In this document: one piece after another, positions 20,313 to 64,000 of the stretch | How the letters are laid out: the number at the start of each line of letters is the position of its first letter | How positions within the stretch are numbered: position 1 is the first letter of the stretch | Origin: Siphonodentalium dalli | Lineage: Eukaryota; Mollusca; Scaphopoda; Gadilida; Siphonodentaliidae | DNA length: 64,000 nucleotides | Assembly (NCBI GenBank): GCA_032622095.1 | Contig: CP136063.1 | Coordinates: 10,271,814-10,335,813, forward strand | Direction: 5' to 3' | Notes under the pieces: model-generated | Database searches by the model: none | What the model saw: only the letters and a program-made list of their open reading frames with translations | Told to the model about the DNA's origin: nothing | Made by a program: the position numbers and the translations under genes

Positions 20313-20344
<32 letters not shown>

Positions 20345-20462: not shown

Positions 20463-20465
<3 letters not shown>

Positions 20466-20810: not shown

Positions 20811-22037
20811 ATGCATGGGGAGGTGGAGTCATCAACAATGGAGACAGGAGAACATAAACACACGTCGGTAAATACGTCACAGACAGGCGTTGATTCGTTA
20901 AGCAGTTTGTCCAATAAGGATATTCGTTCATATCAGTGCGATATATGTTGGGAAACATGCAGCACAACTGCACATTTGCTGGTACATAAGAGAATGCACG
21001 CTGGTGATCGCCCGTATCAATGTGATGTGTCACGTGATAATTCATTTACTGAGTCGAGTAACCTGGCGAGACATAAGAGGATCCACACGGGGGATCGCCC
21101 GTATCGATGCGATGTGTGCGAAAAATCATTTACTGGATCGAGTCACCTGTCTACACATAAGAGGATCCACACGGGTGATCGCCCGTGTCAATGTGATGTG
21201 TGCGAAAAATCATTTACTCAGTTGAGTCACCTGAGTGAACATAAGAGGATCCACACGGGGGATCGCCCGTATCAATGCGATGTGTGCGAGAAATCATTTG
21301 CTCGATCGAGTCACCTGTCTACACATAAGAGGATCCACACGGGGGATCAGCCGTATCAATGTGATGTGTGCGAGAAATCATTTACTCAGCTGAGTCACCT
21401 GACTATACATAAGAGGATCCACACGGGGGATCGGCCGTATCAATGCGATGTGTGCGAGAAATCATTTACTCTATCGAGTCACCTGTCTACACATAAGATG
21501 ATCCACACGGGTGATCATCCGTATCAATGTGATGTGTGCGAGAAATCATTTACTCAGCTGAGTCACCTGACTGTACATAAGAGGATCCACACGGGGGATC
21601 GGCCGTATAAATGTGATATATGCGACAAATCGTTCACTCAGTTGAGTAACCTGGCGAGACACAAGATGATCCACACTGGAGATCGCCCGTATCGATGTGA
21701 TGTGTGCGATAAATCATTTATTGTGTTGAGTAGATTGGTGAATCATAAGAGGATCCACACGGGGGATCGCCCGTATCAATGTGATATGTGCGAGAAATCA
21801 TTTACTGTGTCGTCTCACCTGACGAGACATAAGATCATACATACGGGAGATCACCCGTATCAATGTGATGTGTGCGAGAAATCATTTATTCGATCCAGTC
21901 ACCTGACTGTACATAAGAGGATCCACACGGGGGATGGGCCGTATCAATGTGATATGTGCGAGAAGTCATTTACTGTGTCGTGTCACCTGACGAGACATAA
22001 GAGGACACATACGGGAGATCGACCAATATCAATATGA
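20811..22037 (+). CDS. C2H2 zinc-finger protein, 13 fingers
   Basis: An open frame of 408 codons, ATG to TGA. Probably a sequence-specific nuclear DNA-binding protein. After about 41 Ser/Thr-rich residues without a KRAB, SCAN or BTB domain, 13 finger units of 28 residues follow to the C-terminus. Twelve have full C-X2-C-X12-H-X3-H spacing. The second is degenerate, with Ser in place of the second Cys (CDVSRDNSF). Linkers are TGDRPY or close variants of the TGEKPY type. Fingers 4, 6 and 8 share FTQLSHL and fingers 3, 5 and 7 share SSHLST, so the array grew by a two-finger (168-bp) duplication. Helix position +3 is His in most fingers, which suggests little diversification of binding specificity. 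An in-frame TGA just upstream supports this ATG unless earlier exons join by splicing. The last finger has both histidines, but a frameshift in its linker ends the protein at DRPISI. Finger-like sequence continues beyond, so the protein may once have been longer. Confidence 0.85.
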   Translation: MHGEVESSTMETGEHKHTSVNTSQTGVDSLSSLSNKDIRSYQCDICWETCSTTAHLLVHKRMHAGDRPYQCDVSRDNSFTESSNLARHKRIHTGDRPYRCDVCEKSFTGSSHLSTHKRIHTGDRPCQCDVCEKSFTQLSHLSEHKRIHTGDRPYQCDVCEKSFARSSHLSTHKRIHTGDQPYQCDVCEKSFTQLSHLTIHKRIHTGDRPYQCDVCEKSFTLSSHLSTHKMIHTGDHPYQCDVCEKSFTQLSHLTVHKRIHTGDRPYKCDICDKSFTQLSNLARHKMIHTGDRPYRCDVCDKSFIVLSRLVNHKRIHTGDRPYQCDMCEKSFTVSSHLTRHKIIHTGDHPYQCDVCEKSFIRSSHLTVHKRIHTGDGPYQCDMCEKSFTVSCHLTRHKRTHTGDRPISI

Positions 22038-22480
22038 TACGTGTGAGAAATCATGTGTATCAGTCGGGTGACCCGGCGAAGCATATGTGGATCCACCCGG
22101 GTGATCGCCCGTATTAATGCGATGTGCGCAAGAAGTCATTTACTGAGTCTAGTCACCGGACTTCGCATAAGAGGATCCACATGGGAGATCGTCCGTACGA
22201 TTGTGATGTGTTGCGTGAAATAATTTACTGAGTCGAGTCACCTGACGAAACATATGATGATCCACACGGATGTGATATATCCGAGAAATCATTTTCTTAT
22301 TTGTGTAAACTTCCGAGGTATAAGAAAATCCACAAGGGGAATCGCCCCTATAAACGCGATATGTGCGAGAAGAGATTAACTCGGCTGAGTAGTCTGAATG
22401 TGCGTAATATGATTCACTTTAAGGATCGTGATGTGTGTCTAAAAAATAATTAATTCGGCCTAGCGACCTGACTACTAATA
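22038..22480 (+). pseudogene. Decayed continuation of the zinc-finger array
   Basis: About five or six finger modules follow the stop at 22,037. They are recognisable by 'aagaggatccacatgggaga', 'gagtcacctgacgaaacata' and 'gatatgtgcgagaagag', but carry several frameshifts and in-frame stops (for example 'cccgtattaatgcg' near 22,110). Similarity falls off to the right. This is the former 3' part of the gene at 20,811, or a neighbouring finger gene, no longer translatable. Confidence 0.8.
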
Positions 22481-22660
22481 TTATGATCAACTAAGGCTGA
22501 AAGGGTCACACTCACCAAAAAAAGTGTTGACTGGTACACATGTTTTGTAGATGTGCTGAAGTGTACGCATGTTTTGAAATGTGGTTCTAAATACTTTTAG
22601 TTATGTCTGCCGTGATCTCTGTTGAAGAATAATTGTATATTATAGTCAATGTGTAAAAAT

Positions 22661-22890
22661 CATTTTGATCCACTCAGAGGTGATCGCCCGTATCAACGTA
22701 ATGTGTGCATGGAATCATCCTACCATCAGAGTGACACCAGACGTCTCATAACATAACTCACACAACTACTTATGGCCAATTAGAAAATGCACGCAGGAGT
22801 TTGATCTTATTTGTGCGATAAATTATATGGTCGTGTAAATTGTTTGACGACAAATAAGAGCATACACTCCGAGAATCGTCCATATCCATG
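22661..22890 (+). pseudogene. Relic fingers at the satellite edge (founder flank)
   Basis: Two or three decayed fingers. The last reads, in frame, KSIHSENRPYP directly before the first satellite unit at 22,891. The segment CAT/AAG, AGC, ATA, CAC, TCC, GAG, AAT, CGT carries the second zinc histidine and the linker that every satellite unit lacks. It therefore preserves the pre-deletion state next to the array. Confidence 0.75.
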
Positions 22891-23010
22891 TGATATGTGC
22901 GGGAAATCAAGTATCAGCATGAGTCACTTAACCGAACATCACTCGTATCCATGTGATATGTGCGGGAAATCAAGTATAATTATAAGTCACTTAACCTTAC
23001 ATCGCTCATA

Positions 23011-23345
23011 TCCGTGTGCGGGAAATCAAGTATCATTATAAGTCACTTAACCGAACATCACTCGTATCCATGTGCGGGAAATCAAGTATCATAATAAGTC
23101 ACTTAACCGAACATCGCTCGTATCCGTGTGATATGTGCGGGAAATCAAGTATCATTATAAGTCACTTAACCTTACATCGCTCGTATCCGTGTGCGGGAAA
23201 TCAAGTATCATTATAAGTCACTTAACCGAACATCGCTCGTATCCGTGTGATATGTGCGGGAAATCAAGTATCATTATAAGTCACTTAACCTTACATCGCT
23301 CGTATCCATGTGCGGGAAATCAAGTATCATTATAAGTCACTTAAC
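23011..23345 (+). repeat. 119-bp dimeric subarray
   Basis: Three steps at 23,016, 23,135 and 23,254, exactly 119 bp apart. Each dimer joins a 63-bp unit to a 56-bp unit that lacks 7 bp (tgatatgtgcggg shortened to tgcggg). Confidence 0.85.
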
Positions 23346-23939
23346 CGAACATCGCTCGTATCCGTGTGATATGTGCGGGAAATCAAGTATCATTATAAGT
23401 CACTTAACCTTACATCGCTCGTATCCGTGTGATATGTGCGGGAAATCAAGTATCATTATAAGTCACTTAACCGAACATCGCTCGTATCATGTGATATGTG
23501 CGGGAAATCAAGTATCATTATAAGTCACTTAACCTTACATCGCTCGTATCCGTGTGATATGTGCGGTAAATCAAGTATCATTATAAGTCACTTAACCTTA
23601 CATCGCTCGTATCCGTGTGATATGTGCGGGAAATCAAGTATCATTATAAGTCACTTAACCGAACATCGCTCGTATCATGTGATATGTGCGGGAAATCAAG
23701 TGTAATTATAAGTCACTTAACCGAACATCGCTCGTATCGTGTGATATATGCAGGAAATCAAGTATCATTATAAGTCACTTAACCTTACATCGCTCGTATT
23801 AATGTGATATGTGCGGGAAATCAAGTATCATTATAAGTCACTTAACCTTACATCGCTCTTATCGTGTCATATGTGCGTGAAATCAAGTATCATTATAAGT
23901 CACTTAACTGAACATAGCTCGTATCGTGTGATATGTGCG

Positions 23940-24110
23940 GGAAATCAAGTATAAATTATATGGTCATGTACATTATTAAAATCCATGTGATATGTGCGGG
24001 AAATCAAGTATCAGTATGAATCACGTAAACATATAACATAATTTATACAAGTAGTCGTCCGTATCCATGTGATGTGTGCGGGAAATCAAGTATCAGCATG
24101 AGTCACTTAA
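23940..24110 (+). repeat. Second copy of the founder flank inside the array
   Basis: The array is interrupted by 'aaattatatggtcatgtaca', matching 'aaattatatggtcgtgtaaa' at about 22,818. Further on, 'gtcgtccgtatccatgtgat' matches the sequence just before the first unit at about 22,877, followed by the same rare unit variant (atcagcatgagtcac). A block holding relic finger plus first units was duplicated, with internal loss. Confidence 0.75.
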
Positions 24111-24194
24111 CCTTACATCGCTCGTATCCGTGTGATATGTGCGGGAAATCAAGTATCATAAGTCATTTAACTTTACATCGCGCGTATCCATGTG

Positions 24195-26300
24195 ATATGT
24201 GCGGGAAATCAAATACATGTATAATTATGAGTCACTTAACCGAACATCGCTCGTATCGTGTGATGTGTGCGGGAAATCAAGTACATGTATCATTATAAGT
24301 CACTTAACCGAACATCGCTCGTATCGTTGATATGTGCGGGAAATCAAGTACATGTATAATTATGAGTCACTTAACCGAACATCGCTCGTATCGTGTGATA
24401 TGTGCGGGAAATCAAGTACATGTATCATTATAAGTCACTTAACCGAACATCGCTCGTATCATGTGATATGTGCGGGAAATCAGGTAGTATTATAAGTCAC
24501 TTAACCTTACATCGCTCGTATCCATGTGATATGTGCGGGAAATCAAGTATAATTATAAGTCACTTAACCGAACATCCCTCGTATCGTGTGATATGTGCGG
24601 GAAATCAAGTATCATTATAAGTCACTTAACCGAACATCGCTCGTATCGTGTGATATGTGCGGGAAATCAAGTATCATTATAAGTCACTTAACCTTACATC
24701 GCTCGTATCCATGTGATATGGGCGGGAAATAAAGTATCATTATAATTCACCTAACCTTACATCGCTCGTATCCATGTGATATGTGCGGGAAATCAAGTAC
24801 ATGTATAATTATAAGTAACTTAACTGAACATAGCTCGTATCGTGTGATATGTGAGGGAAATCAAGTATCATTATAAGTCACTTAACCGAACATCGCTCTT
24901 ATCGTGTGATATGTGTGGGAAATCAAGTATTATTATAAGTCACTTAACCGAACATCGCTCGTATCGTGTGATATGTGCGGGAAATCAAGTATCATTGTAA
25001 GTCACTTAACCGAACATCGCTCTTATCGTGTGATATATGTGGGAAATAAAGTATTATTATAAGTCACTTAACCTTGCAGCGCTCGTGTCCATGTGATATG
25101 TGCGGGAAATCAAGTATCAGTATAAGTCACTTACCATTACATCGCTCTTATCCGTGTGATATGTGGAGGGGAATCAAGTATCATTATAAGTCACCTAACC
25201 TTACATCGCTCGTATCGTGTGATATGTGAGGGAAATCAAGTATCATTATAACTCCTTAACCTTACATCGCTCGTATCGTGTGATATGTGCGGGAAATCAA
25301 TTATCATTATAAGTCACTTAACCTTACATCGCTCGTATCCATGTGATATACGCGGGAAATAGAGTATCATTATAATTCACCTAACCTTACATCGCTCGTA
25401 TCCATGTGATATGTGCGGGAAATCAAGTACATGTATAATTATAAGTAACTTAACTGAACATAGCTCGTATTGTGTGATATGTGAGGGAAATCAAGTATCA
25501 TTATAAGTCACTTAACCGAACATCGCTCTTATCGTGTGATATGTGTGGGAAATCATGTATCATTATAAGTCACCTAACCTTACATCGCTCATATCGTGTG
25601 ATATGTGAGGGAAATCAAGTATCATTATAACTCATTAACCTTACATCGCTCGTATCGTGTGATATGTGTGGGAAATCAAGTATCATTATAAGTCACTTAA
25701 CCTTACATCGCTCGTATCCATGTGATATACGCGGGAAATAGAGTATCATTATAATTCACCTAACCTTACATCGCTCGTATCCATGTGATATGTGCGGGAA
25801 ATCAAGTACATGTATAATTATAAGTAACTTAACTGAACATAGCTCGTATTGTGTGATATGTGAGGGAAATCAAGTATCATTATAAGTCACTTAACCTTAC
25901 ATCGCTCGTATCCATGTGATATGTGCGGGAAATAAAGTATCATTATAAGTCACTTACCATTACATCGCTCTTATCCGTGTGATATGTGGAGGGGAATCAA
26001 GTATCATTATAAGTCACCTAACCTTACATCGCTCGTATCGTGTGATATGTGAGGGAAATCAAGTATCATTATAGCTCATTAACCTTACATCGCTCGTATC
26101 GTGTGATATGTGGGGGAAATCAAGTATCATTATAAGTCACTTAACCTTACATCGCTCGTATCCATGTGATATACGCGGGAAATAGAGTATCATTATAATT
26201 CACCTAACCTTACATCGCTCGTATCCATGTGATATGTGCGGGAAATCAAGTACATGTATAATTATAAGTAACTTAACTGAACATAGCTCGTATTGTGTGA
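24195..26300 (+). repeat. Subarray with 6-bp acatgt insertion units
   Basis: Units with 'caagtacatgtat' in place of 'caagtat' (6 bp longer) occur at about 24,210, 24,280, 24,350, 24,417, 24,797, 25,427, 25,806 and 26,250, and nowhere further right that I noticed. A linked block with the unusual 'gatatacgcgggaaatagag' recurs at 25,351, 25,730 and 26,174, so a segment of about 380-440 bp was tandemly copied. Confidence 0.75.
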
Positions 26301-29300
26301 TATGTGAGGGAAATCAAGTATCATTATAAGTCACTTAACCGAACATCGCTCGTATCGTGTGATATGTGTGGGAAATCAAGTATTATTATAAGTCACTTAA
26401 CCGAACATCGCTCGTATCGTGTGATATGTGTGGGAAATCAAGTATCATTATAAGTCACTTAACCGAACATCGCTCTTATCGTGTGATATGTGTGGGAAAT
26501 AAAGTATTATTATAAGTCACTTAACCTTACAGCGCTCGTATCCATGTGATATGTGCGGGAAATCAAGTATCATTATAAGTCACTTAACATTACATCGCTC
26601 GTATCCGTGTGATATGTGAGGGGAATCAAGTATCATTATAAGTAACTTAACCTTACATCGCTCGTATCGTGTGATATGTGAGGGAAATCAAGTATCATTA
26701 TAAGTCACTTAACCGAACATCGCTCGTATCGTGTGATATGTGAGGGAAATCAAGTATCATTATAAGTCACTTAACCGAACATCGCTCGTATCGTGTGATA
26801 TGTAAGGGAAATCAAGTATCATTATAAGTCACTTAACCGAACATCGCTCGTATCGTGTGATATGTGAGGGAAATCAAGTATCATTATAAGTCACTTAACA
26901 TTACATCGCTCGTATCGTGTGATATGTGAGGGAAATCAAGTATCATTATAAGTAACTTAACATTACATCGCTCGTATCGTGTGATATGTGAGGGGAATCA
27001 AGTATCATTATAAGTCACTTAACATTACATCGCTCGTATCGTGTGATATGTGAGGGAAATCAAGTATCATTATAAGTCACTTAACCTTACATCGCTCGTA
27101 TCGTGTGATATGTGCAGGAAATCAAGTATCATTATAAGTAACTTAACATTACATCGCTCGTATCCGTGTGATATGTGAGGGGAATCAAGTATCATTATAA
27201 GTTACTTAACCTTACATCGCTCGTATCGTGTGATATGTGCGGGAAATCAAGTATCATTATAAGTCACTTAACCGAACATCGCTCGTATCCGTGTGATATG
27301 TGCAGGAAATCAAGTATCATTATAAGTCAGTTAGCATTACATCGCTCGTATCGTGTGATATGTGAGGGGAATCAAGTATCATTATAAGTCACTTAACATT
27401 ACATCGCTCGTATCGTGTGATATGTGCGGGAAATCAAGTATCATTATAAGTAACTTAACATTACATCGCTCGTATCGTGTGATATGTGAGGGAAATCAAG
27501 TATCATTATAAGTAACTTAACGAACATCGCTCGTATCCGTGTGATATGTGAGGGGAATCAAGTATCAATGTAAGTCACTTAACCTTACATCGCTCGTATC
27601 GTGTGATATGTGAGGGGAATCAAGTATCATTATAAGTAACTTAACATTACATCGCTCGTATCATGTGATATGTGAGGGAAATCAAGTATCATTATAAGTA
27701 ACTTAACGAACATCGCTCGTATCCGTGTGATATGTGAGGGGAATCAAGTATCAATGTAAGTCACTTAACCTTACATCGCTCGTATCGTGTGATATGTGAG
27801 GGGAATCAAGTATCATTATAAGTAACTTAACATTACATCGCTCGTATCGTGTGATATGTGAGGGGAATCAAGTATCAATGTAAGTCACTTAACATTACAT
27901 CGCTCGTATCGTGTGATATGTGAGGGGAATCAAGTATCATTATAAGTAACTTAACCGAACATCGCTCGTATCGTGTGATATGTGAGGGGAATCAAGTATC
28001 ATTATAAGTAACTTAACATTACATCGCTCGTATCGTGTGATATGTGAGGGGAATCAAGTATCAATGTAAGTCACTTAACATTACATCGCTCGTATCGTGT
28101 GATATGTGAGGGGAATCAAGTATCATTATAAGTCACTTAACCGAACATCGCTCGTATCGTGTGATATGTGAGGGGAATCAAGTATCATTATAAGTCACTT
28201 AACATTACATCGCTCGTATCGTGTGATATGTGAGGGGAATCAAGTATCATTATAAGTAACTTAACCGAACATCGCTCGTATCGTGTGATATGTGAGGGGA
28301 ATCAAGTATCATTATAAGTAACTTAACCGAACATCGCTCGTATCGTGTGATATGTGAGGGGAATCAAGTATCATTATAAGTAACTTAACATTACATCGCT
28401 CGTATCATGTGATATGTGAGGGGAATCAAGTATCAATGTAAGTCACTTAACATTACATCGCTCGTATCGTGTGATATGTGAGGGGAATCAAGTATCATTA
28501 TAAGTCACTTAACCGAACATCGCTCGTATCGTGTGATATGTGAGGGGAATCAAGTATCATTATAAGTAACTTAACCGAACATCGCTCGTATCGTGTGATA
28601 TGTGAGGGGAATCAAGTATCATTATAAGTAACTTAACATTACATCGCTCGTATCCGTGTGATATGTGAGGGGAATCAAGTATCAATGTAAGTCACTTAAC
28701 ATTACATCGCTCGTATCGTGTGATATGTGAGGGGAATCAAGTATCATTATAAGTAACTTAACCGAACATCGCTCGTATCGTGTGATATGTGAGGGGAATC
28801 AAGTATCATTATAAGTAACTTAACCGAACATCGCTCGTATCGTGTGATATGTGAGGGGAATCAAGTATCATTATAAGTAACTTAACATTACATCGCTCGT
28901 ATCGTGTGATATGTGAGGGGAATCAAGTATCATTATAAGTAACTTAACATTACATCGCTCGTATCGTGTGATATGTGCAGGGAATCAAGTATCATTATAA
29001 GTCACTTAACATTACATCGCTCGTATCGTGTGATATGTGAGGGGAATCAAGTATCAATGTAAGTAACTTAACCGAACATCGCTCGCATCGTGTGATATGT
29101 GCAGGAAATCAAGTATCATTATAAGTAACTTAACCTTACATCGCTCGTATCGTGTGATATGTGAGGGGAATCAAGTATCATTATAAGTAACTTAACCGAA
29201 CATCGCTCGTATCGTGTGATATGTGAGGGGAATCAAGTATCATTATAAGTAACTTAACATTACATCGCTCGTATCGTGTGATATGTGAGGGGAATCAAGT

Positions 29301-29849
29301 ATCATTATAAGTAACTTAACATTACATCGCTCGTATCGTGTGATATGTGCAGGAAATCAAGTATCATTATAAGTAACTTAACATTACATCGCTCGTATCC
29401 GTGTGATATGTGAGGGGAATCAAGTATCAATGTAAGTCACTTAACATTACATCGCTCGTATCGTGTGATATGTGCAGGAAATCAAGTATCATTATAAGTC
29501 ACTTAACATTACACCGCTCGTATCGTGTGATATGTGAGGGGAATCAAGTATCATTATAAGTAACTTAACCGAACATCGCTCGTATCGTGTGATATGTGAG
29601 GGGAATCAAGTATCATTATAAGTAACTTAACCGAACATCGCTCGTATCGTGTGATATGTGAGGGGAATCAAGTATCATTATAAGTAACTTAACATTACAT
29701 CGCTCGTATCGTGTGATATGTGAGGGGAATCAAGTATCATTATAAGTCACTTAACATTACATCGCTCGTATCGTGTGATATGTGAGGGGAATCAAGTATC
29801 ATTATAAGTCACTTAACCGAACATCGCTCGTATCGTGTGATATGTGAGG

Positions 29850-32800
29850 GGAATCAAGTATCAATGTAAGTCACTTAACATTACATCGCTCGTATCGTGT
29901 GATATGTGAGGGGAATCAAGTATCATTATAAGTCACTTAACATTACATCGCTCGTATCGTGTGATATGTGCAGGAAATCAAGTATCATTATAAGTAACTT
30001 AACATTACATCGCTCGTATCATGTGATATGTGAGGGAAATCAAGTATCAATGTAAGTCACTTAACATTACATCGCTCGTATCCATGTGATATGTGCAGGA
30101 AATCAAGTATCATTATAAGTAACTTAACATTACATCGCTCGTATCCGTGTGATATGTGAGGGAAATCAAGTATCAATGTAAGTCACTTAACATTACATCG
30201 CTCGTATCATGTGATATGTGCGGGAAATCAAGTATCATTATAAGTAACTTAACATTACATCGCTCGTATCCGTGTGATATGTGAGGGAAATCAAGTATCA
30301 ATGTAAGTCACTTAACATTACATCGCTCGTATCGTGTGATATGTGCGGGAAATCAAGTATCATTATAAGTAACTTAACATTACATCGCTCGTATCGTGTG
30401 ATATGTGAGGGAAATCAAGTATCAATGTAAGTCACTTAACATTACATCGTTCGTATCATGTGATATGTGCGGGAAATCAAGTATCATTATAAGTAACTTA
30501 ACATTACATCGCTCGTATGCGTGTGATATGTGAGGGAAATCAAGTATCATTATAAGTCACTTAACATTACATCGCTCGTATCCTTGTGATATGTGAGGGG
30601 AATCAAGTATCAATGTAAGTCACTTAACATTACATCGCTCGTATCATGTGATATGTGAGGGAAATCAAGTATCATTATAAGTCACTTAACATTACATCGC
30701 TCGTATCCGTGTGATATGTGCAGGAAATCAAGTATCATTATAAGTCACTTAACCTTACATCGCTCGTATCGTGTGATATGTGAGGGGAATCAAGTATCAT
30801 TATAAGTTACTTAACCTTACATCGCTCGTATCGTGTGATATGTGAGGGAAATCAAGTATCATTATAAGTCACTTAACCGAACATCGCTCGTATCGTGTGA
30901 TATGTGAGGGAAATCAAGTATCATTATAAGTAACTTAACATTACATCGCTCGTATCGTGTGATATGTGAGGGAAATCAAGTATCAATGTAAGTCACTTAA
31001 CATTACATCGCTCGTATCCATGTGATATGTGAGGGGAATCAAGTATCATTATAAGTCACTTAACCGAACATCGCTCGTATCGTGTGATATGTGAGGGGAA
31101 TCAAGTATCAATGTAAGTCACTTAACATTACATCGCTCGTATCATGTGATATGTGAGGGGAATCAAGTATCATTATAAGTTACTTAACCTTACATCGCTC
31201 GTATCGTGTGATATGTGAGGGGAATCAAGTATCAATGTAAGTCACTTAACATTACATCGCTCGTATCGTGTGATATGTGAGGGAAATCAAGTATCATTGT
31301 AATTCACTTAACATTACATCGCTCGTATCGTGTGATATGTGAGGGGAATCAAGTATCATTATAAGTAACTTAACATTACATCGCTCGTATCGTGTGATAT
31401 GTGAGGGAAATCAAGTATCATTATAAGTAACTTAACCTTACATCGCTCGTATCGTGTGATATGTGAGGGAAATCAAGTATCATTATAAGTCACTTAACCG
31501 AACATCGCTCGTATCGTGTGATATGTGCGGGAAATCAAGTATCATTATAAGTCACTTAACCTTACATCGCTCGTATCGTGTGATATGTGAGGGAAATCAA
31601 GTATCAATGTAAGTCACTTAACATTACATCGCTCGTATCGTGTGATATGTGAGGGGAATCAAGTATCATTATAAGTCACTTAACATTACATCGCTCGTAT
31701 CGTGTGATATGTGAGGGGAATCAAGTATCATTATAAGTCACTTAACATTACATCGCTCGTATCGTGTGATATGTGAGGGGAATCAAGTATCATTATAAGT
31801 CACTTAACCGAACATCGCTCGTATCGTGTGATATGTGCGGGAAATCAAGTATCATTATAAGTCACTTAACCTTACATCGCTCGTATCGTGTGATATGTGA
31901 GGGGAATCAAGTATCATTATAAGTCACTTAACCGAACATCGCTCGTATCGTGTGATATGTGCGGGAAATCAAGTATCATTATAAGTCACTTAACCTTACA
32001 TCGCTCGTATCATGTGATATGTGAGGGGAATCAAGTATCAATGTAAGTCACTTAACATTACATCGCTCGTATCGTGTGATATGTGAGGGGAATCAAGTAT
32101 CATTATAAGTCACTTAACATTACATCGCTCGTATCGTGTGATATGTGCAGGAAATCAAGTATCATTATAAGTAACTTAACATTACATCGCTCGTATCATG
32201 TGATATGTGAGGGAAATCAAGTATCAATGTAAGTCACTTAACATTACATCGCTCGTATCATGTGATATGTGCGGGAAATCAAGTATCATTATAAGTAACT
32301 TAACATTACATCGCTCGTATCATGTGATATGTGCGGGAAATCAAGTATCATTATAAGTAACTTAACATTACATCGCTCGTATCGTGTGATATGTGAGGGA
32401 AATCAAGTATCAATGTAAGTCACTTAACATTACATCGCTCGTATCATGTGATATGTGCGGGAAATCAAGTATCATTATAAGTAACTTAACATTACATCGC
32501 TCGTATCGTGTGATATGTGAGGGAAATCAAGTATCAATGTAAGTCACTTAACATTACATCGCTCGTATCATGTGATATGTGCGGGAAATCAAGTATCATT
32601 ATAAGTAACTTAACATTACATCGCTCGTATCCGTGTGATATGTGAGGGAAATCAAGTATCATTATAAGTCACTTAACATTACATCGCTCGTATCCTTGTG
32701 ATATGTGAGGGGAATCAAGTATCAATGTAAGTCACTTAACATTACATCGCTCGTATCATGTGATATGTGAGGGAAATCAAGTATCATTATAAGTCACTTA

Positions 32801-35800: not shown

Positions 35801-36880
35801 ATCGCTCGTATCGTGTGATATGTGAGGGAAATCAAGTATCATTATAAGTAACTTAACATTACATCGCTCGTATCCGTGTGATATGTGAGGGAAATCAAGT
35901 ATCAATGTAAGTCACTTAACCTTACATCGCTCGTATCGTGTGATATGTGAGGGAAATCAAGTATCATTATAAGTTACTTAACATTACATCGCTCGTATCA
36001 TGTGATATGTGCGGGAAATCAAGTATCATTATAAGTAACTTAACATTACATCGCTCGTATCGTGTGATATGTGAGGGAAATCAAGTATCAATGTAAGTCA
36101 CTTAACATTACATCGCTCGTATCATGTGATATGTTCGGGAAATCAAGTATCATTATAAGTAACTTAACATTACATCGCTCGTATCCGTGTGATATGTGAG
36201 GGAAATCAAGTATCATTATAAGTCACTTAACATTACATCGCTCGTATCCTTGTGATATGTGAGGGGAATCAAGTATCAATGTAAGTCACTTAACATTACA
36301 TCGCTCGTATCATGTGATATGTGAGGGAAATCAAGTATCATTATAAGTCACTTAACATTACATCGCTCGTATCCGTGTGATATGTGCAGGAAATCAAGTA
36401 TCATTATAAGTCACTTAACCTTACATCGCTCGTATCGTGTGATATGTGAGGGGAATCAAGTATCATTATAAGTTACTTAACCTTACATCGCTCGTATCGT
36501 GTGATATGTGAGGGAAATCAAGTATCATTATAAGTCACTTAACCGAACATCGCTCGTATCGTGTGATATGTGAGGGAAATCAAGTATCATTATAAGTAAC
36601 TTAACATTACATCGCTCGTATCGTGTGATATGTGAGGGAAATCAAGTATCAATGTAAGTCACTTAACATTACATCGCTCGTATCCATGTGATATGTGAGG
36701 GGAATCAAGTATCATTATAAGTCACTTAACCGAACATCGCTCGTATCGTGTGATATGTGAGGGGAATCAAGTATCAATGTAAGTCACTTAACATTACATC
36801 GCTCGTATCATGTGATATGTGAGGGGAATCAAGTATCATTATAAGTTACTTAACCTTACATCGCTCGTATCGTGTGATAT
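29850..36880 (+). repeat. Triplicated 1.0-1.4-kb higher-order segment
   Basis: Two marker variants, 'cattgtaattcactt' at 31,297 and 33,409 and 'tccttgtgatatgtgagggg' at 30,581 and 32,693, are both 2,112 bp apart. The second marker recurs with the same neighbours at 36,247, a further 3,554 bp on. Approximate copies are 29.85-31.32, 32.02-33.43 and 35.99-36.88 kb. Confidence 0.75.
34281..34844 (+). repeat. 375-bp (six-unit) local duplication
   Basis: The three-unit pattern with tgaggggaatc, tgcagtaaatc and tgagggaaatc at 34,281-34,469 returns exactly 375 bp later at 34,656-34,844. Confidence 0.75.
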
Positions 36881-51292: not shown

Positions 51293-54200
51293 TCATGTGA
51301 TATGTGCGGGAAATCAAGTATCATTATAAGTAACTTAACATTACATCGCTCGTATCCGTGTGATATGTGAGGGAAATCAAGTATCATTATAAGTAACTTA
51401 ACATTACATCGCTCGTATCCGTGTGATATGTGAGGGAAATCAAGTATCATTATAAGTAACTTAACCTTACATCGCTCGTATCGTGTGATATGTGAGGGAA
51501 ATCAAGTATCATTATAAGTCACTTAACCTTACATCGCTCGTATCCATGTGATATGTGAGGGAAATCAAGTATCAATGTAAGTAACTTAACCTTACATCGC
51601 TCGTATCCATGTGATATGTGAGGGAAATCAAGTATCATTATAAGTAACTTAACCTTACATCGCTCGTATCCGTGTGATATGTGAGGGGAATCAAGTATCA
51701 TTATAAGTAACTTAACATTACATCGCTCGTATCGTGTGATATGTGAGGGGAATCAAGTATCATTATAAGTAACTTAACATTACATCGCTCGTATCGTGTG
51801 ATATGTGAGGGGAATCAAGTATCATTATAAGTTACTTAACCTTACATCGCTCGTATCGTGTGATATGTGAGGGAAATCAAGTATCATTATAAGTAACTTA
51901 ACATTACATCGCTCGTATCCTTGTGATATGTGAGGGGAATCAAGTATCATTATAAGTAACTTAACATTACATCACTCGTATCGTGTGATATGTGAGGGGA
52001 ATCAAGTATCATTATAAGTTACTTAACATTACATCGCTCGTATCCTTGTGATATATGAGGGGAATCAAGTATCATTATAAGTAACTTAACCTTACATCGC
52101 TCGTATCGTGTGATATGTGAGGGGAATCAAGTATCATTATAAGTAACTTAACCTTACATCGCTCGTATCGTGTGATATGTGAGGGAAATCAAGTATCAAT
52201 GTAAGTCACTTAACCGAACATCGCTCGTATCCTTGTGATATGTGCATGAAATCAAGTATCATTATAAGTAACTTAACATTACATCGCTCGTATCGTGTGA
52301 TATGTGAGGGAAATCAAGTATCATTATAAGTCACTTAACCGAACATCGCTCGTATCCATGTGATATGTGCGGGTAATCAAGTATCATTATAAGTCACTTA
52401 ACCTTACATCGCTCGTATCCTTGTGATATGTGCAGGAAATCAAGTATCATTATAAGTCACTTAACATTACATCGCTCGTATCCTTGTGATATGTGCGGGA
52501 AATCAAGTATCATTATAAGTCACTTAACCTTACATCGCTCGTATCCTTGTGATATGTGCGGGAAATCAAGTATCATTATAAGTCACTTAACCTTACATCG
52601 CTCGTATCCGTGTGATATGTGAGGGGAATCAAGTATCATTATAAGTTACTTAACCGAACATCGCTCATATCGTGTGATATGTGCGGGAAATCAAGTATCA
52701 TTATAATTCACTTAACCGAACATCGCTCGTATCCATGTGATATGTGCGGGAAATCAAGTATCATTATAAGTCACTTAACCTTACATCGCTCGTATCCTTG
52801 TGATATGTGCAGGAAATCAAGTATCATTATAAGTAACTTAACATTACATCGCTCGTATCGTGTGATATGTGAGGGAAATCAAGTATCATTATAAGTCACT
52901 TAACCTTACATCGCTCGTATCCATGTGATATGTGCGGGAAATCAAGTATCATTATAAGTCACTTAACCGAACATCGCTCGTATCCTTGTGATATGTGCAG
53001 GAAATCAAGTATCATTATAAGTCACTTAACATTACATCGCTCGTATCGTGTGATATGTGCGGGAAATCAAGTATCATTATAAGTCACTTAACATTACATC
53101 GCTCGTATCCTTGTGATATGTGCAGGAAATCAAGTATCATTATAAGTAACTTAACATTACATCGCTCGTATCATGTGATATGTGCGGGAAATCAAGTATC
53201 ATTATAAGTAACTTAACATTACATCGCTCGTATCCGTGTGATATGTGAGGGAAATCAAGTATCATTATAAGTAACTTAACATTACATCGCTCGTATCCGT
53301 GTGATATGTGAGGGAAATCAAGTATCATTATAAGTAACTTAACCTTACATCGCTCGTATCGTGTGATATGTGAGGGAAATCAAGTATCAATGTAAGTAAC
53401 TTAACCTTACATCGCTCGTATCCATGTGATATGTGAGGGAAATCAAGTATCATTATAAGTAACTTAACCTTACATCGCTCGTATCCGTGTGATATGTGAG
53501 GGGAATCAAGTATCATTATAAGTAACTTAACATTACATCGCTCGTATCGTGTGATATGTGAGGGGAATCAAGTATCATTATAAGTAACTTAACATTACAT
53601 CGCTCGTATCGTGTGATATGTGAGGGGAATCAAGTATCATTATAAGTTACTTAACCTTACATCGCTCGTATCGTGTGATATGTGAGGGAAATCAAGTATC
53701 ATTATAAGTAACTTAACATTACATCGCTCGTATCCTTGTGATATGTGAGGGGAATCAAGTATCATTATAAGTAACTTAACATTACATCACTCGTATCGTG
53801 TGATATGTGAGGGGAATCAAGTATCATTATAAGTTACTTAACATTACATCGCTCGTATCCTTGTGATATATGAGGGGAATCAAGTATCATTATAAGTAAC
53901 TTAACCTTACATCGCTCGTATCGTGTGATATGTGAGGGGAATCAAGTATCATTATAAGTAACTTAACCTTACATCGCTCGTATCGTGTGATATGTGAGGG
54001 AAATCAAGTATCAATGTAAGTCACTTAACCGAACATCGCTCGTATCCTTGTGATATGTGCATGAAATCAAGTATCATTATAAGTAACTTAACATTACATC
54101 GCTCGTATCGTGTGATATGTGAGGGAAATCAAGTATCATTATAAGTCACTTAACCGAACATCGCTCGTATCCATGTGATATGTGCGGGAAATCAAGTATC

Positions 54201-57200
54201 ATTATAAGTCACTTAACCTTACATCGCTCGTATCCTTGTGATATGTGCAGGAAATCAAGTATCATTATAAGTCACTTAACATTACATCGCTCGTATCCTT
54301 GTGATATGTGCGGGAAATCAAGTATCATTATAAGTCACTTAACCTTACATCGCTCGTATCCTTGTGATATGTGCGGGAAATCAAGTATCATTATAAGTCA
54401 CTTAACCTTACATCGCTCGTATCCGTGTGATATGTGAGGGGAATCAAGTATCATTATAAGTTACTTAACCGAACATCGCTCATATCGTGTGATATGTGCG
54501 GGAAATCAAGTATCATTATAATTCACTTAACCGAACATCGCTCGTATCCATGTGATATGTGCGGGAAATCAAGTATCATTATAAGTCACTTAACCTTACA
54601 TCGCTCGTATCCTTGTGATATGTGCAGGAAATCAAGTATCATTATAAGTAACTTAACATTACATCGCTCGTATCGTGTGATATGTGAGGGAAATCAAGTA
54701 TCATTATAAGTCACTTAACCTTACATCGCTCGTATCCATGTGATATGTGCGGGAAATCAAGTATCATTATAAGTCACTTAACCGAACATCGCTCGTATCC
54801 TTGTGATATGTGCAGGAAATCAAGTATCATTATAAGTCACTTAACCTTACATCGCTCGTATCCATGTGATATGTGCGGGAAATCAAGTATCATTATAAGT
54901 CACTTAACCTTACATCGCTCGTATCCTTGTGATATGTGCAGGAAATCAAGTATCATTATAAGTAACTTAACATTACATCGCTCGTATCCTTGTGATATGT
55001 GAGGGGAATCAAGTATCAATGTAAGTTACTTAACCTTACATCGCTCGTATCGTGTGATATGTGCGGGAAATCAAGTAACATTATAAGTCACTTAACCTTA
55101 CATCGCTCGTATCCTTGTGATATGTGCAGGAAATCAAGTATCATTATAAGTAACTTAACATTACATCGCTCGTATCCTTGTGATATGTGAGGGGAATCAA
55201 GTATCAATGTAAGTTACTTAACCTTACATCGCTCGTATCGTGTGATATGTGCGGGAAATCAAGTATCATTATAAGTCACTTAACCTTACATCGCTCGTAT
55301 CCTTGTGATATGTGCAGGAAATCAAGTATCATTATAAGTAACTTAACATTACATCGCTCGTATCCTTGTGATATGTGAGGGGAATCAAGTATCAATGTAA
55401 GTTACTTAACCTTACATCGCTCGTATCGTGTGATATGTGCGGGAAATCAAGTATCATTATAAGTCACTTAACCTTACATCGCTCGTATCCTTGTGATATG
55501 TGCAGGAAATCAAGTATCATTATAAGTAACTTAACATTACATCGCTCGTATCGTGTGATATGTGAGGGGAATCAAGTATCATTATAAGTAACTTAACATT
55601 ACATCGCTCGTATCCGTGTGATATGTGCAGGAAATCAAGTATCATTATAAGTAACTTAACATTACATCGCTCGTATCGTGTGATATGTGAGGGGAATCAA
55701 GTATCATTATAAGTAACTTAACATTACATCGCTCGTATCGTGTGATATGTGAGGGGAATCAAGTATCATTATAAGTAACTTAACATTACATCGCTCGTAT
55801 CCTTGTGATATGTGCAGGAAATCAAGTATCATTATAAGTCACTTAACCGAACATCGCTCGTATCGTGTGATATGTGAGGGGAATCAAGTATCATTATAAG
55901 TAACTTAACATTACATCGCTCGTATCCGTGTGATATGTGAGGGGAATCAAGTATCATTATAAGTAACTTAACATTACATCGCTCGTATCGTGTGATATGT
56001 GAGGGGAATCAAGTATCATTATAAGTCACTTAACCTTACATCGCTCGTATCCTTGTGATATGTGCAGGAAATCAAGTATCATTATAAGTCACTTAACCTT
56101 ACATCGCTCGTATCCCTGTGATATGTGCAGGAAATCAAGTATCATTATAAGTAACTTAACATTACATCGCTCGTATCGTGTGATATGTGAGGGAAATCAA
56201 GTATCATTATAAGTCACTTAACCGAACATCGCTCGTATCCATGTGATATGTGCGGGAAATCAAGTATCATTATAAGTCACTTAACCGAACATCGCTCGTA
56301 TCGTGTGATATGTGAGGGAAATCAAGTATCATTATAAGTCACTTAACCTTACATCGCTCGTATCCGTGTGATATGTGAGGGAAATCAAGTATCATTATAA
56401 GTAACTTAACATTACATCGCTCGTATCGTGTGATATGTGCGGGAAATCAAGTATCATTATAAGTCACTTAACCGAACATCGCTCGTATCCTTGTAATATG
56501 TGAGGGAAATCAAGTATCATTATAAGTCACTTAACCGAACATCGCTCGTATCCTTGTAATATGTGCAGGAAATCAAGTATCATTATAAGTAACTTAACAT
56601 TACATCGCTCGTATCGTGTGATATGTGAGGGAAATCAAGTATCATTATAAGTAACTTAACCTTACATCGCTCGTATCCGTGTGATATGTGAGGGAAATCA
56701 AGTATCATTATAAGTCACTTAACATTACATCGCTCGTATCCGTGTGATATGTGAGGGAAATCAAGTATCATTATAAGTAACTTAACCTTACATCGCTCGT
56801 ATCCTTGTGATATGTGCGGGGAAATCAAGTATCATTATAAGTAACTTAACCTTACATCGCTCGTATCGTGTGATATGTGCGGGAAATCAAGTATCATTAT
56901 AAGTAACTTAACATTACATCGCTCGTATCCTTGTGATATGTGAGGGAAATCAAGTATCAATGTAAGTCACTTAACCTTACATCGCTCGTATCCGTGTGAT
57001 ATGTGAGGGAAATCAAGTATCATTATAAGTCACTTAACCTTACATCGCTCGTATCGTGTGATATGTGCAGGAAATCAAGTATCATTATAAGTCACTTAAC
57101 ATTACATCGCTCGTATCGTGTGATATGTGCAGGAAATCAAGTATCATTATAAGTCACTTAACCGAACATCGCTCGTATCCTTGTGATATGTGCAGGAAAT

Positions 57201-60200
57201 CAAGTATCATTATAAGTAACTTAACCTTACATCGCTCGTATCGTGTGATATGTGAGGGGAATCAAGTATCATTATAAGTAACTTAACCTTACATCGCTCG
57301 TATCGTGTGATATGTGAGGGAAATCAAGTATCATTATAAGTCACTTAACCGAACATCGCTCGTATCGTGTGATATGTGAGGGGAATCAAGTATCATTATA
57401 AGTAACTTAACCTTACATCGCTCGTATCCGTGTGATATGTGCGGGGAAATCAAGTATCATTATAAGTAACTTAACCTTACATCGCTCGTATCCGTGTGAT
57501 ATGTGAGGGAAATCAAGTATCATTATAAGTAACTTAACCTTACATCGCTCGTATCGTGTGATATGTGCAGGAAATCAAGTATCATTATAAGTAACTTAAC
57601 CTTACATCGCTCGTATCCGTGTGATATGTGAGGGGAATCAAGTATCAATGTAAGTCACTTAACATTACATCGCTCGTATCGTGTGATATGTGAGGGAAAT
57701 CAAGTATCATTATAAGTCACTTAACATTACATCGCTCGTATCCATGTGATATGTGAGGGAAATCAAGTATCATTATAAGTCACTTAACATTACATCGCTC
57801 GTATCGTGTGATATGTGCGGGGAATCAAGTATCAATGTAAGTCACTTAACATTACATCGCTCGTATCCATGTGATATGTGAGGGAAATCAAGTATCATTA
57901 TAAGTCACTTAACCGAACATCGCTCGTATCGTGTGATATGTGAGGGGAATCAAGTATCATTATAAGTCACTTAACATTACATCGCTCGTATCGTGTGATA
58001 TGTGAGGGAAATCAAGTATCAATGTAAGTCACTTAACATTACATCGCTCGTATCCATGTGATATGTGAGGGAAATCAAGTATCATTATAAGTCACTTAAC
58101 CGAACATCGCTCGTATCGTGTGATATGTGAGGGGAATCAAGTATCATTATAAGTAACTTAACATTACATCGCTCGTATCCTTGTGATATGTGAGGGAAAT
58201 CAAGTATCATTATAAGTCACTTAACCTTACATCGCTCGTATCGTGTGATATGTGCAGGGAAATCAAGTATCAATGTAAGTAACTTAACCTTACATCGCTC
58301 GTATCCGTGTGATATGTGCGGGAAATCAAGTATCATTATAAGTAACTTAACCTTACATCGCTCGTATCGTGTGATATGTGAGGGAAATCAAGTATCATTA
58401 TAAGTAACTTAACATTACATCGCTCGTATCGTGTGATATGTGAGGGAAATCAAGTATCATTATAAGTCACTTAACCTTACATCGCTCGTATCGTGTGATA
58501 TGTGCAGGGAAATCAAGTATCAATGTAAGTAACTTAACCTTACATCGCTCGTATCCTTGTGATATGTGAGGGAAATCAAGTATCATTATAAGTCACTTAA
58601 CATTACATCGCTCGTATCCGTGTGATATGTGAGGGAAATCAAGTATCATTATAAGTAACTTAACCTTACATCGCTCGTATCCGTGTGATATGTGCAGGAA
58701 ATCAAGTATCATTATAAGTAACTTAACCTTACATCGCTCGTATCGTGTGATATGTGCGGGAAATCAAGTATCATTATAAGTAACTTAACCTTACATCGCT
58801 CGTATCCGTGTGATATGTGCAGGAAATCAAGTATCATTATAAGTAACTTAACCTTACATCGCTCGTATCGTGTGATATGTGCGGGAAATCAAGTATCATT
58901 ATAAGTAACTTAACCTTACATCGCTCGTATCGTGTGATATGTGCGGGAAATCAAGTATCATTATAAGTAACTTAACCTTACATCGCTCGTATCCGTGTGA
59001 TATGTGAGGGAAATCAAGTATCATTATAAGTAACTTAACCTTACATCGCTCGTATCGTGTGATATGTGCAGGAAATCAAGTATCATTATAAGTCACTTAA
59101 CCTTACATCGCTCGTATCCGTGTGATATGTGAGGGGAATCAAGTATCAATGTTAGTCACTTAACATTACATCGCTCGTATCGTGTGATATGTGCAGGAAA
59201 TCAAGTATCATTATAAGTAACTTAACATTACATCGCTCGTATCGTGTGATATGTGCAGGAAATCAAGTATCATTATAAGTAACTTAACATTACATCGCTC
59301 GTATCGTGTGATATGTGCGGGAAATCAAGTATCATTATAAGTCACTTAACCGAACATCGCTCGTATCGTGTGATATGTGAGGGGAATCAAGTATCAATGT
59401 AAGTAACTTAACATTACATCGCTCGTATCGTGTGATATGTGAGGGGAATCAAGTATCATTATAAGTAACTTAACCTTACATCGCTCGTATCGTGTGATAT
59501 GTGCAGGAAATCAAGTATCATTATAAGTCACTTAACCTTACATCGCTCGTATCCGTGTGATATGTGAGGGGAATCAAGTATCAATGTGAGTCACTCAACA
59601 TTACATCGCTCGTATCGTGTGATATGTGCAGGAAATCAAGTATCATTATAAGTAACTTAACATTACATCGCTCGTATCCTTGTGATATGTGAGGGGAATC
59701 AAGTATCAATGTAAGTCACTTAACCTTACATCGCTCGTATCCTTGTGATATGTGCGGGAAATCAAGTATCATTATAAGTCACTTAACCGAACATCGCTCG
59801 TATCGTGTGATATGTGAGGGGAATCAAGTATCAATGTAAGTAACTTAACATTACATCGCTCGTATCGTGTGATATGTGCGGGAAATCAAGTATCATTATA
59901 AGTAACTTAACCTTACATCGCTCGTATCGTGTGATATGTGCAGGAAATCAAGTATCATTATAAGTCACTTAACCTTACATCGCTCGTATCCGTGTGATAT
60001 GTGAGGGGAATCAAGTATCAATGTGAGTCACTTAACATTACATCGCTCGTATCGTGTGATATGTGCAGGAAATCAAGTATCATTATAAGTAACTTAACAT
60101 TACATCGCTCGTATCGTGTGATATGTGCAGGAAATCAAGTATCATTATAAGTAACTTAACATTACATCGCTCGTATCGTGTGATATGTGCGGGAAATCAA

Positions 60201-63200
60201 GTATCATTATAAGTCACTTAACCGAACATCGCTCGTATCGTGTGATATGTGAGGGGAATCAAGTATCAATGTAAGTAACTTAACCTTACATCGCTCGTAT
60301 CGTGTGATATGTGCAGGAAATCAAGTATCATTATAAGTCACTTAACATTACATCGCTCGTATCATGTGATATGTGAGGGGAATCAAGTATCAATGTAAGT
60401 CACTTAACATTACATCGCTCGTATCGTGTGATATGTGAGGGAAATCAAGTATCATTATAAGTCACTTAACCGAACATCGCTCGTATCCGTGTGATATGTG
60501 AGGGAAATCAAGTATCAATGTAAGTCACTTAACATTACATCGCTCGTATCCGTGTGATATGTGAGGGAAATCAAGTATCATTATAAGTCACTTAACCTTA
60601 CATCGCTCGTATCGTGTGATATGTGAGGGAAATCAAGTATCATTATAAGTCACTTAACCTTACATCGCTCGTATCCGTGTGATATGTGAGGGAAATCAAG
60701 TATCATTATAAGTAACTTAACATTACATCGCTCGTATCGTGTGATATGTGCGGGAAATCAAGTATCATTATAAGTCACTTAACCGAACATCGCTCGTATC
60801 GTGTGATATGTGAGGGGAATCAAGTATCAATGTAAGAAACTTAACCTTACATCGCTCGTATCGTGTGATATGTGAGGGAAATCAAGTATCATTATAAGTC
60901 ACTTAACATTACATCGCTCGTATCGTGTGATATGTGCGGGAAATCAAGTATCATTATAAGTCACTTAACATTACATCGCTCGTATCCTTGTGATATGTGC
61001 AGGAAATCAAGTATCATTATAAGTAACTTAACATTACATCGCTCGTATCATGTGATATGTGCGGGAAATCAAGTATCATTATAAGTAACTTAACATTACA
61101 TCGCTCGTATCCGTGTGATATGTGAGGGAAATCAAGTATCATTATAAGTAACTTAACATTACATCGCTCGTATCCGTGTGATATGTGAGGGAAATCAAGT
61201 ATCATTATAAGTAACTTAACCTTACATCGCTCGTATCGTGTGATATGTGAGGGAAATCAAGTATCAATGTAAGTAACTTAACCTTACATCGCTCGTATCC
61301 ATGTGATATGTGAGGGAAATCAAGTATCATTATAAGTAACTTAACCTTACATCGCTCGTATCCGTGTGATATGTGAGGGGAATCAAGTATCATTATAAGT
61401 AACTTAACATTACATCGCTCGTATCGTGTGATATGTGAGGGGAATCAAGTATCATTATAAGTAACTTAACATTACATCGCTCGTATCGTGTGATATGTGA
61501 GGGGAATCAAGTATCATTATAAGTTACTTAACCTTACATCGCTCGTATCGTGTGATATGTGAGGGAAATCAAGTATCATTATAAGTAACTTAACATTACA
61601 TCGCTCGTATCCTTGTGATATGTGAGGGGAATCAAGTATCATTATAAGTAACTTAACATTACATCACTCGTATCGTGTGATATGTGAGGGGAATCAAGTA
61701 TCATTATAAGTTACTTAACATTACATCGCTCGTATCCTTGTGATATATGAGGGGAATCAAGTATCATTATAAGTAACTTAACCTTACATCGCTCGTATCG
61801 TGTGATATGTGAGGGGAATCAAGTATCATTATAAGTAACTTAACCTTACATCGCTCGTATCGTGTGATATGTGAGGGAAATCAAGTATCAATGTAAGTCA
61901 CTTAACCGAACATCGCTCGTATCCTTGTGATATGTGCATGAAATCAAGTATCATTATAAGTAACTTAACATTACATCGCTCGTATCGTGTGATATGTGAG
62001 GGAAATCAAGTATCATTATAAGTCACTTAACCGAACATCGCTCGTATCCATGTGATATGTGCGGGAAATCAAGTATCATTATAAGTCACTTAACCTTACA
62101 TCGCTCGTATCCTTGTGATATGTGCAGGAAATCAAGTATCATTATAAGTCACTTAACATTACATCGCTCGTATCCTTGTGATATGTGCGGGAAATCAAGT
62201 ATCATTATAAGTCACTTAACCTTACATCGCTCGTATCCTTGTGATATGTGCGGGAAATCAAGTATCATTATAAGTCACTTAACCTTACATCGCTCGTATC
62301 CGTGTGATATGTGAGGGGAATCAAGTATCATTATAAGTTACTTAACCGAACATCGCTCATATCGTGTGATATGTGCGGGAAATCAAGTATCATTATAATT
62401 CACTTAACCGAACATCGCTCGTATCCATGTGATATGTGCGGGAAATCAAGTATCATTATAAGTCACTTAACCTTACATCGCTCGTATCCTTGTGATATGT
62501 GCAGGAAATCAAGTATCATTATAAGTAACTTAACATTACATCGCTCGTATCGTGTGATATGTGAGGGAAATCAAGTATCATTATAAGTCACTTAACCTTA
62601 CATCGCTCGTATCCATGTGATATGTGCGGGAAATCAAGTATCATTATAAGTCACTTAACCGAACATCGCTCGTATCCTTGTGATATGTGCAGGAAATCAA
62701 GTATCATTATAAGTCACTTAACATTACATCGCTCGTATCGTGTGATATGTGCGGGAAATCAAGTATCATTATAAGTCACTTAACATTACATCGCTCGTAT
62801 CCTTGTGATATGTGCAGGAAATCAAGTATCATTATAAGTAACTTAACATTACATCGCTCGTATCATGTGATATGTGCGGGAAATCAAGTATCATTATAAG
62901 TAACTTAACATTACATCGCTCGTATCCGTGTGATATGTGAGGGAAATCAAGTATCATTATAAGTAACTTAACATTACATCGCTCGTATCCGTGTGATATG
63001 TGAGGGAAATCAAGTATCATTATAAGTAACTTAACCTTACATCGCTCGTATCGTGTGATATGTGAGGGAAATCAAGTATCAATGTAAGTAACTTAACCTT
63101 ACATCGCTCGTATCCATGTGATATGTGAGGGAAATCAAGTATCATTATAAGTAACTTAACCTTACATCGCTCGTATCCGTGTGATATGTGAGGGGAATCA

Positions 63201-64000
63201 AGTATCATTATAAGTAACTTAACATTACATCGCTCGTATCGTGTGATATGTGAGGGGAATCAAGTATCATTATAAGTAACTTAACATTACATCGCTCGTA
63301 TCGTGTGATATGTGAGGGGAATCAAGTATCATTATAAGTTACTTAACCTTACATCGCTCGTATCGTGTGATATGTGAGGGAAATCAAGTATCATTATAAG
63401 TAACTTAACATTACATCGCTCGTATCCTTGTGATATGTGAGGGGAATCAAGTATCATTATAAGTAACTTAACATTACATCACTCGTATCGTGTGATATGT
63501 GAGGGGAATCAAGTATCATTATAAGTTACTTAACATTACATCGCTCGTATCCTTGTGATATATGAGGGGAATCAAGTATCATTATAAGTAACTTAACCTT
63601 ACATCGCTCGTATCGTGTGATATGTGAGGGGAATCAAGTATCATTATAAGTAACTTAACCTTACATCGCTCGTATCGTGTGATATGTGAGGGAAATCAAG
63701 TATCAATGTAAGTCACTTAACCGAACATCGCTCGTATCCTTGTGATATGTGCATGAAATCAAGTATCATTATAAGTAACTTAACATTACATCGCTCGTAT
63801 CGTGTGATATGTGAGGGAAATCAAGTATCATTATAAGTCACTTAACCGAACATCGCTCGTATCCATGTGATATGTGCGGGAAATCAAGTATCATTATAAG
63901 TCACTTAACCTTACATCGCTCGTATCCTTGTGATATGTGCAGGAAATCAAGTATCATTATAAGTCACTTAACATTACATCGCTCGTATCCTTGTGATATG
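51293..64000 (+). repeat. 1,815-bp higher-order block, four copies
   Basis: A shared anchor (tatcatgtgatatgtgcggg followed by three tgaggg units) lies at 51,293, 53,171, 61,048 and 62,863. The rare marker 'tgtgcatgaaatc' lies at 52,241, 54,056, 61,933 and 63,748. Lags are 1,815 (1,878 for the first anchor, one extra unit), 7,877 and 1,815. The last copy is cut by the window edge. A block of about 29 units was duplicated in tandem and the pair is present twice. Confidence 0.85.
54880..55570 (+). repeat. 188-bp trimeric subarray
   Basis: Three-unit groups start at 54,999, 55,187 and 55,375, each 188 bp apart, alternating tgagggg/aatgtaag, tgcggg and tgcagg units in fixed order. Confidence 0.8.

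Follow-up and report, generated by a model that had tools for sequence, protein, structure and literature searches.

A satellite array in the scaphopod Siphonodentalium dalli very probably arose at a single locus out of one decayed C2H2 finger lying 3' of a zinc-finger gene. The window (the whole stretch of DNA analysed, 64,000 bp) corresponds to C3:10271814-10335813 in a 2.23-Gb, 9-contig genome, from whose assembly unplaced scaffolds are absent. A first look at this genome gave 30,614 C2H2 candidates, and many of the 150 that were scored and listed sit in clusters on C3 and C1. An inverted partner of the locus, called here the inverted arm, lies about 0.3 Mb away on C3. The features of the window, by window position, are the following.

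9009-9108, no strand: assembly gap of 100 N; the array-bearing contig begins at 9,109, and the match to the inverted arm extends exactly to 9,109
20126-20463, no strand: microsatellite rich in GA, upstream of the gene; the inverted arm has a TC-rich counterpart at the mirrored place
20808-22037, plus strand: C2H2 zinc-finger ORF, 409 aa (Pfam zf-C2H2 and zf-H2C2_2); chimeric relative to the inverted arm, with the breakpoint between 21,998 and 22,027
22038-22882, plus strand: decayed finger tail 3' of the ORF; its final part is also present behind paralogues
22752-22878, plus strand: founder junction probe, the last decayed fingers immediately before the first satellite copy
22883-64000, plus strand: satellite array with a 62/63-bp unit, of which 659 monomers have their start in the window; it extends downstream to C3:10370582 with one 10.7-kb interruption
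23952-24087, plus strand: second founder-type finger, undeleted and with linker, within the proximal array edge; matched by the paralogue linker probe

A 619-aa open frame at 2766-4625 (minus strand) had no Pfam match at E 0.001.

The unit is a shortened zinc finger

The C2H2 zinc finger motif contains two Cys and two His (C-x2-C-x12-H-x3-5-H). Read in frame, the satellite unit is PCDMCGKSSIIISHLTLHRSY, which retains C-x2-C-x12-H. Alignments with the intact 84-bp finger showed that the unit lacks about 21 bp, including the second zinc-binding His and the linker. Aligned with the consensus of the 11 intact fingers in the local gene, the unit scored 63.5, while 2,000 dinucleotide shuffles scored 15.5 ± 3.0 (maximum 33.5); against the best single local intact finger it scored 67.5. 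Against a relic finger at 35.58 Mb the score was 101.5 (1,000 shuffles, 17.8 ± 3.6, maximum 36.0), and against a more diverged relic finger at 40.28 Mb it was 62.0, about equal to that of the intact-finger consensus. The scores of 63.5 and 101.5 exceed their shuffle maxima; the unit is C2H2-derived sequence, as originally predicted, and chance similarity to fingers is ruled out. It is not a complete C2H2 finger: the second His is deleted, and about 51% of 1,639 monomers have TGA in place of the second Cys codon.

Extent of the array and its distribution in the genome

Tandem Repeats Finder placed the array from 22,883 (63-bp row) or 22,889 (62-bp row) to 64,000, with about 658 copies and 91% matches. 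Wraparound segmentation gave 659 monomers starting within the window. The commonest monomers there were 62 bp long (362/659), followed by those of 63 bp (268/659), and the reading frame is therefore not kept. An array of 63-bp units in about 650 copies over 41 kb, directly downstream of a zinc-finger gene and its decaying finger tail, had been predicted from the window. Its place behind the 409-aa ORF (20,808-22,037) and the decayed fingers (22,038-22,882), its extent and its copy number were confirmed; the commonest length is 62 bp. The term megasatellite, used in the same prediction, is a misnomer, because a unit of 62-63 bp is not large and has the size of a minisatellite or satellite. As a long head-to-tail array of similar units (58.2 + 7.0 kb, 91% matches, about half of them with a stop), the sequence is satellite DNA.

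The array crosses position 64,000, and the next 10 kb is wholly array. It is continuous to C3:10352884 and, after a 10.7-kb break, ends at C3:10370582. The full window-side array thus consists of 58,189 bp, the interruption, and a further 7,023 bp (65.2 kb of satellite). The interruption, C3:10352885-10363560, is made of 2.7 head-to-tail copies (99.7-99.8%) of a 3,958-bp element, no copy of which was found in the inverted arm. With 501 bp of this element as a probe, at least 40 places (the best 40 of 435 candidates) on all 9 contigs matched at 99-100% identity, and a regular run with a spacing of about 3,956 bp was present on C5 at 3.13-3.16 Mb. No ORF of at least 120 aa was listed for the element. 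It is a recently mobile, tandem-inserting and apparently non-autonomous element.

Near-exact matches to a 29-bp core of the unit (at most 2 mismatches) numbered 1,497 in the 2.2-Gb assembly, 945 forward and 552 reverse. The core pattern read backwards gave 0 matches genome-wide. All 945 forward matches fell in the window-side array and 551 of the 552 reverse matches in the inverted partner (C3:10638848-10698765), so that 1,496 of the 1,497 belong to these two arms. The sole near-exact match elsewhere was an isolated 82-bp fragment (1.3 units) on C6, and no C2H2 motif was found in the 10 kb read around it. This indicates that the unit has moved at least once. The genome search suggested with the original prediction thus found the near-exact units to be local and no old satellite elsewhere in this genome; such pattern counts detect near-exact units only, and diverged copies elsewhere may escape them (the best 37 of 47 candidates were scored).

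A relic finger behind the gene as the probable parent

The founder finger lies about 850 bp behind the ORF stop codon, outside the 409-aa ORF, and the first satellite unit runs on from the decayed finger without a break. The founder junction probe (22,752-22,878) matched C3:10294565 (+), 10690875 (-) and 10698770 (-), partially 10689891 (-), and seven weaker loci at 31-52 Mb on C3, at each of which 3 kb was read. At six of these seven loci, which are finger genes or remnants, a single founder finger stands in the tail together with its linker, and a further relic finger comes after it. These six paralogues are located at C3:31.47, 35.19, 35.58, 40.28, 41.74 and 52.41 Mb, 21-42 Mb from the window locus, and have the same join without the array. 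The seventh locus matched a different part of the probe only. In a word scan, unit words formed one tail cluster of less than 100 bp in 6/6 paralogues and were absent from the seventh locus, and no array was found at the six paralogues. Tandem Repeats Finder, run on two of the six, found no 62/63-bp repeat. The relic stretch is an open frame of 100-102 codons in three paralogues and contains stops in two.

A scan whose query joined the founder finger to its left-hand neighbour (the best 40 of 367 candidates) gave five close paralogues at 96-100% and four local junctions at 91-94%. Three members of the same family, at 40.28, 59.96 and 60.38 Mb, matched at 78-79%; the latter two are known as matches only. 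Undeleted fingers with the linker were found with a linker probe (8/8 candidates scored) at window 24,011-24,087, C3:10698661-10698734 and C3:10689779-10689855. The paralogue linker probe matched the first of these (C3:10295824-10295900) with 78% identity and E 4.5e-8. In a tree of 29 finger rows, the unit and nine relic tail fingers formed one clade apart from the gene's 11 intact fingers, with a support of 0.895; branching within the relic-plus-satellite clade was poorly separated. The unit is the founder relic finger minus about 21 bp.

The probe and paralogue matches, the higher score of 101.5 and the tree clade all point to the relic behind the gene, and not to the working fingers, as the parent of the satellite. 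The original prediction had the satellite born from an exon, a coding repeat, and this part has to be given up, since the founder is a relic outside the ORF and the unit groups with the nine relic tail fingers. It is very unlikely that coding fingers of the neighbouring gene were amplified straight into the array. Such an origin would agree with the alignment to the local intact fingers (63.5 for the consensus and 67.5 for the best single finger, far above the shuffles) and with the contiguity of array and gene tail, but the 35.58-Mb relic finger scores higher, the tree parts the unit and relic fingers from the intact ones, and the founder stands well beyond the stop codon. That an older dispersed satellite landed next to a zinc-finger gene is harder still to believe. 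Against the isolated 82-bp copy on C6, which this would explain, stand the 1,496 of 1,497 near-exact matches at this locus and the first unit, which continues the decayed finger unbroken at a join that the paralogues have without the array. The local birth of a finger-derived satellite, the core of the original prediction, was upheld both by this concentration of near-exact units and by the alignment scores. The claim that donor, junction and satellite stand in one stretch was also supported, the donor relic, junction and array being contiguous. The junction in the window is, however, already the deleted form; undeleted intermediates occur in the inverted arm and, within the window, at 24.0 kb.

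The inverted partner and the chimeric gene

The two arms were compared at both ends and in several pieces between, out of 176 kb. The distal flanks were 99.7% identical over 7.6 kb, the proximal flanks 94.6-99.1%, the far proximal end 95.8%, and the inner pieces 90-99.4%. The window-side contig reaches from window position 9,109 to C3:10457303 and lies between two 100-N gaps, the second at C3:10457304-10457403. Of the sequence past the second gap, about 600 bases were examined, and they gave repeat-like matches only. Because the homology to the inverted arm ends exactly at both gaps, the inverted partner is likely the other haplotype, and the window-side contig an unpurged haplotig placed inverted. 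We consider a true inverted segmental duplication at C3:10.55-10.71 Mb unlikely. Both arms are present in one scaffold, the compared pieces are 90% to 99.7% identical, and among the matches listed elsewhere there are several finger pairs of equal score and open-frame length, which could be further duplications or other haplotigs; the gaps that bound the window-side arm, with homology reaching exactly to both, are nevertheless as in an unpurged haplotig. The array in the window is real, as predicted, but that its contig is probably a haplotig had not been foreseen. Since the assembly probably retains both haplotypes here, gene counts in these clusters may be inflated.

On the haplotig reading the two arms would be two alleles. 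The satellite amounts to 65.2 kb on the window side and 38.0 kb in the inverted arm, where it is divided into pieces of 0.3, 2.3, 15.8, 0.1 and 19.5 kb. Two inserts were observed in the inverted arm. The first, of 5.1 kb (C3:10670009-10675104), interrupts the satellite, has the ends GGTGCCACTCC.../...GGAGTGTCACC with TTA on both sides, and contains no open frame of at least 150 aa; it resembles a cut-and-paste transposon with a 3-bp target duplication. The other, of 11.5 kb (about C3:10658363-10669896), has open frames of 1,555, 774 and 410 aa on the strand opposite to the satellite reading. It is perhaps a retroelement, judging from the open-frame lengths alone.

The order in the inverted arm is gene1-array-gene2-array-gene3, and that in the window arm is gene1/gene2 chimera-array-gene3. 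The inverted arm has an extra finger gene between the arrays (gene2, a 320-aa open frame), and its gene1 is split into open frames of 257 and 178 aa, the window counterpart having 409 aa. The window gene and its tail were aligned with gene1 and gene2 of the inverted arm, which gave 195 informative sites. To the left of a breakpoint at 21,998-22,027, 174 of 175 sites fit gene1, and to the right 16 of 20 fit gene2; 0 of 10,000 permutations fitted as well. Relative to the other arm, the window gene is a gene1/gene2 chimera. In blocks of 150 columns, the 5' parts of gene1 and gene2 of the inverted arm were only 75-94% identical, and their tails 97-99%. Unequal exchange or conversion within the finger region may have produced the chimeric gene, and an exchange would also account for why the window arm has neither gene2 nor the first array. 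To judge from the low 5' identity of gene1 and gene2, the event would have been a loss in the window arm and not a gain in the other arm. A search for a known 3' flank split by the array, in which the distal spacer was set against the seven tail loci, gave no match at the six paralogues and two short matches at the seventh. At the threshold applied, the downstream flank of gene3 and the window tail did not match.

Growth and turnover of the array

The relic finger is common to a family of paralogous genes, which represent the pre-satellite state. At one locus it lost about 21 bp to give the 63-bp repeat, and amplification led to the 1,652 segmented copies of both arms together. About half of the copies are now 62 bp long, and about half have a stop codon. 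The first duplication could have used the similarity of adjacent relic fingers, through slippage or unequal exchange. Unequal exchange between sisters, or the break-induced copying of blocks, may have driven growth, and the satellite is probably young.

In the main array, random monomer pairs were 91.9% identical and neighbours 92.3%, which indicates that homogenisation at the scale of single monomers is weak. A run of 67 consecutive monomers, identical in the aligned columns, was repeated 9.7 kb away, and a run of 38 monomers was repeated 4.0 kb away. Blocks of many units have been copied recently, and the array shows the block turnover of a satellite. Between the main array and the inverted-arm pieces I2, I3 and I4, no run of more than 6 identical monomers was shared; the distal window-side piece shares identical runs of up to 14 monomers with I4. 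Usable monomers were those longer than 55 and shorter than 70 bp (1,639 of the 1,652 in all arms, with 13 dropped for length). At least two of four ancestral bases were kept in 3 of the 1,639. Of these three, two (22,886 and 24,065) are at the edge of the array in the window, and the third is close to the far end of the inverted arm's first array. A polarity in which monomer position follows age is suggestive only.

Coding potential and function

In the window, the second Cys codon was TGA, a stop, in 365/659 monomers and TGC in 277/659. Over all arms, the third base of this codon was A in about 51% of the 1,639 usable monomers, and the first C, whose loss gives 62 bp, was absent in about 52%. 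By piece, TGA ranged from 22% (I2) to 57% (I4), with 0 in the three usable units of I1, and TGC exceeded TGA in three inverted-arm pieces (I1, I2 and I3). Rare substitutions at codon positions 1, 2 and 3 numbered 253, 240 and 357, a third-position excess, and in-frame runs within the array reach 155 aa. Summed heterozygosity at the three positions was 1.92, 0.86 and 1.86, with no third-position excess.

The third-position excess and the in-frame runs are a weak sign that would suit coding. Since about half of the units carry a stop codon, the array as a whole does not code for protein. That it encodes a repeat protein resembling fingers, which these two signs might favour, is barely conceivable and was rejected on the stop codons and the 62-bp units; the unit also lacks the second zinc-binding His. 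A role in regulating or insulating the surrounding finger-gene cluster, for which the array would be retained, is improbable. For the human SST1 array, which lies in a zinc-finger cluster, such a role has been put forward (PMC3018141); here, however, the array content of the two arms is strongly unlike, except near the distal end. The array probably has no selected function.

Relation to known satellites

Broken zinc fingers can also be read in a 148-bp tandem repeat, observed in two other stretches (L003, 8302-8894, and L004, 2537-3165). This repeat forms short arrays on at least 6 contigs, with 159 matches (the best 40 of 662 candidates scored), and may be a second, dispersed finger-derived repeat.

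For the CapA satellite of New World monkeys, an origin in an intron of NOS1AP was suggested in the account of PMC8210747. In both cases, going by that account, a gene part that is single-copy elsewhere was amplified into a satellite in one lineage. The source of CapA was an intron and the present one is a zinc-finger relic; the single-copy state of CapA is known from other species, whereas here paralogues of the same genome show it, and the array itself retains undeleted intermediates. The human ZAV and SST1 macrosatellites and beta-satellite adjoin zinc-finger genes, as described in PMC3018141, and are likewise tandem arrays beside C2H2 genes and clusters. The four macrosatellites tabulated there have units of 2.4-6.6 kb, unlike the 62-63 bp found here; the unit of beta-satellite is given as 68 bp in PMC12273238. 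The description in PMC3018141 presents these arrays as adjacent and states no finger origin, whereas the present unit is finger-derived. Transposable elements, rDNA spacers and micro/minisatellites are the satellite sources named in section 4.1 of PMC12692304. Like satellites from such sources, the present array grew out of a short repeat that was already there. A protein-coding repeat or the relic of one is not among the sources in that section; here the source is a relic finger.

Among the matches listed from open-licence literature (with few subscription papers) on satellite origin and on satellites at zinc-finger genes, no zinc-finger-derived satellite was found. Satellites from gene parts and arrays beside zinc-finger genes are already known, and what we did not meet in this literature is a satellite that appears to derive from a finger. 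The source of a satellite can often no longer be read from its sequence. One genome here holds the unamplified relic (in six paralogues), the undeleted intermediate and the finished array, and with all three states together the order of steps can be read: decay, deletion, amplification, loss of frame and block turnover. This points to decayed protein repeats as a possible seed of satellites, and to such arrays lying at places where finger genes come and go. We tentatively propose, at somewhat less than even confidence, that zinc-finger gene clusters are satellite nurseries, in which the relic fingers behind genes are ready-made out-of-frame tandem repeats; one of them would have escaped here into a satellite, and unequal exchange between neighbouring fingers and arrays would then have gained or lost whole finger genes. 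If this is true, both steps, the escape of a satellite and the gain or loss of genes, would be visible at one locus.
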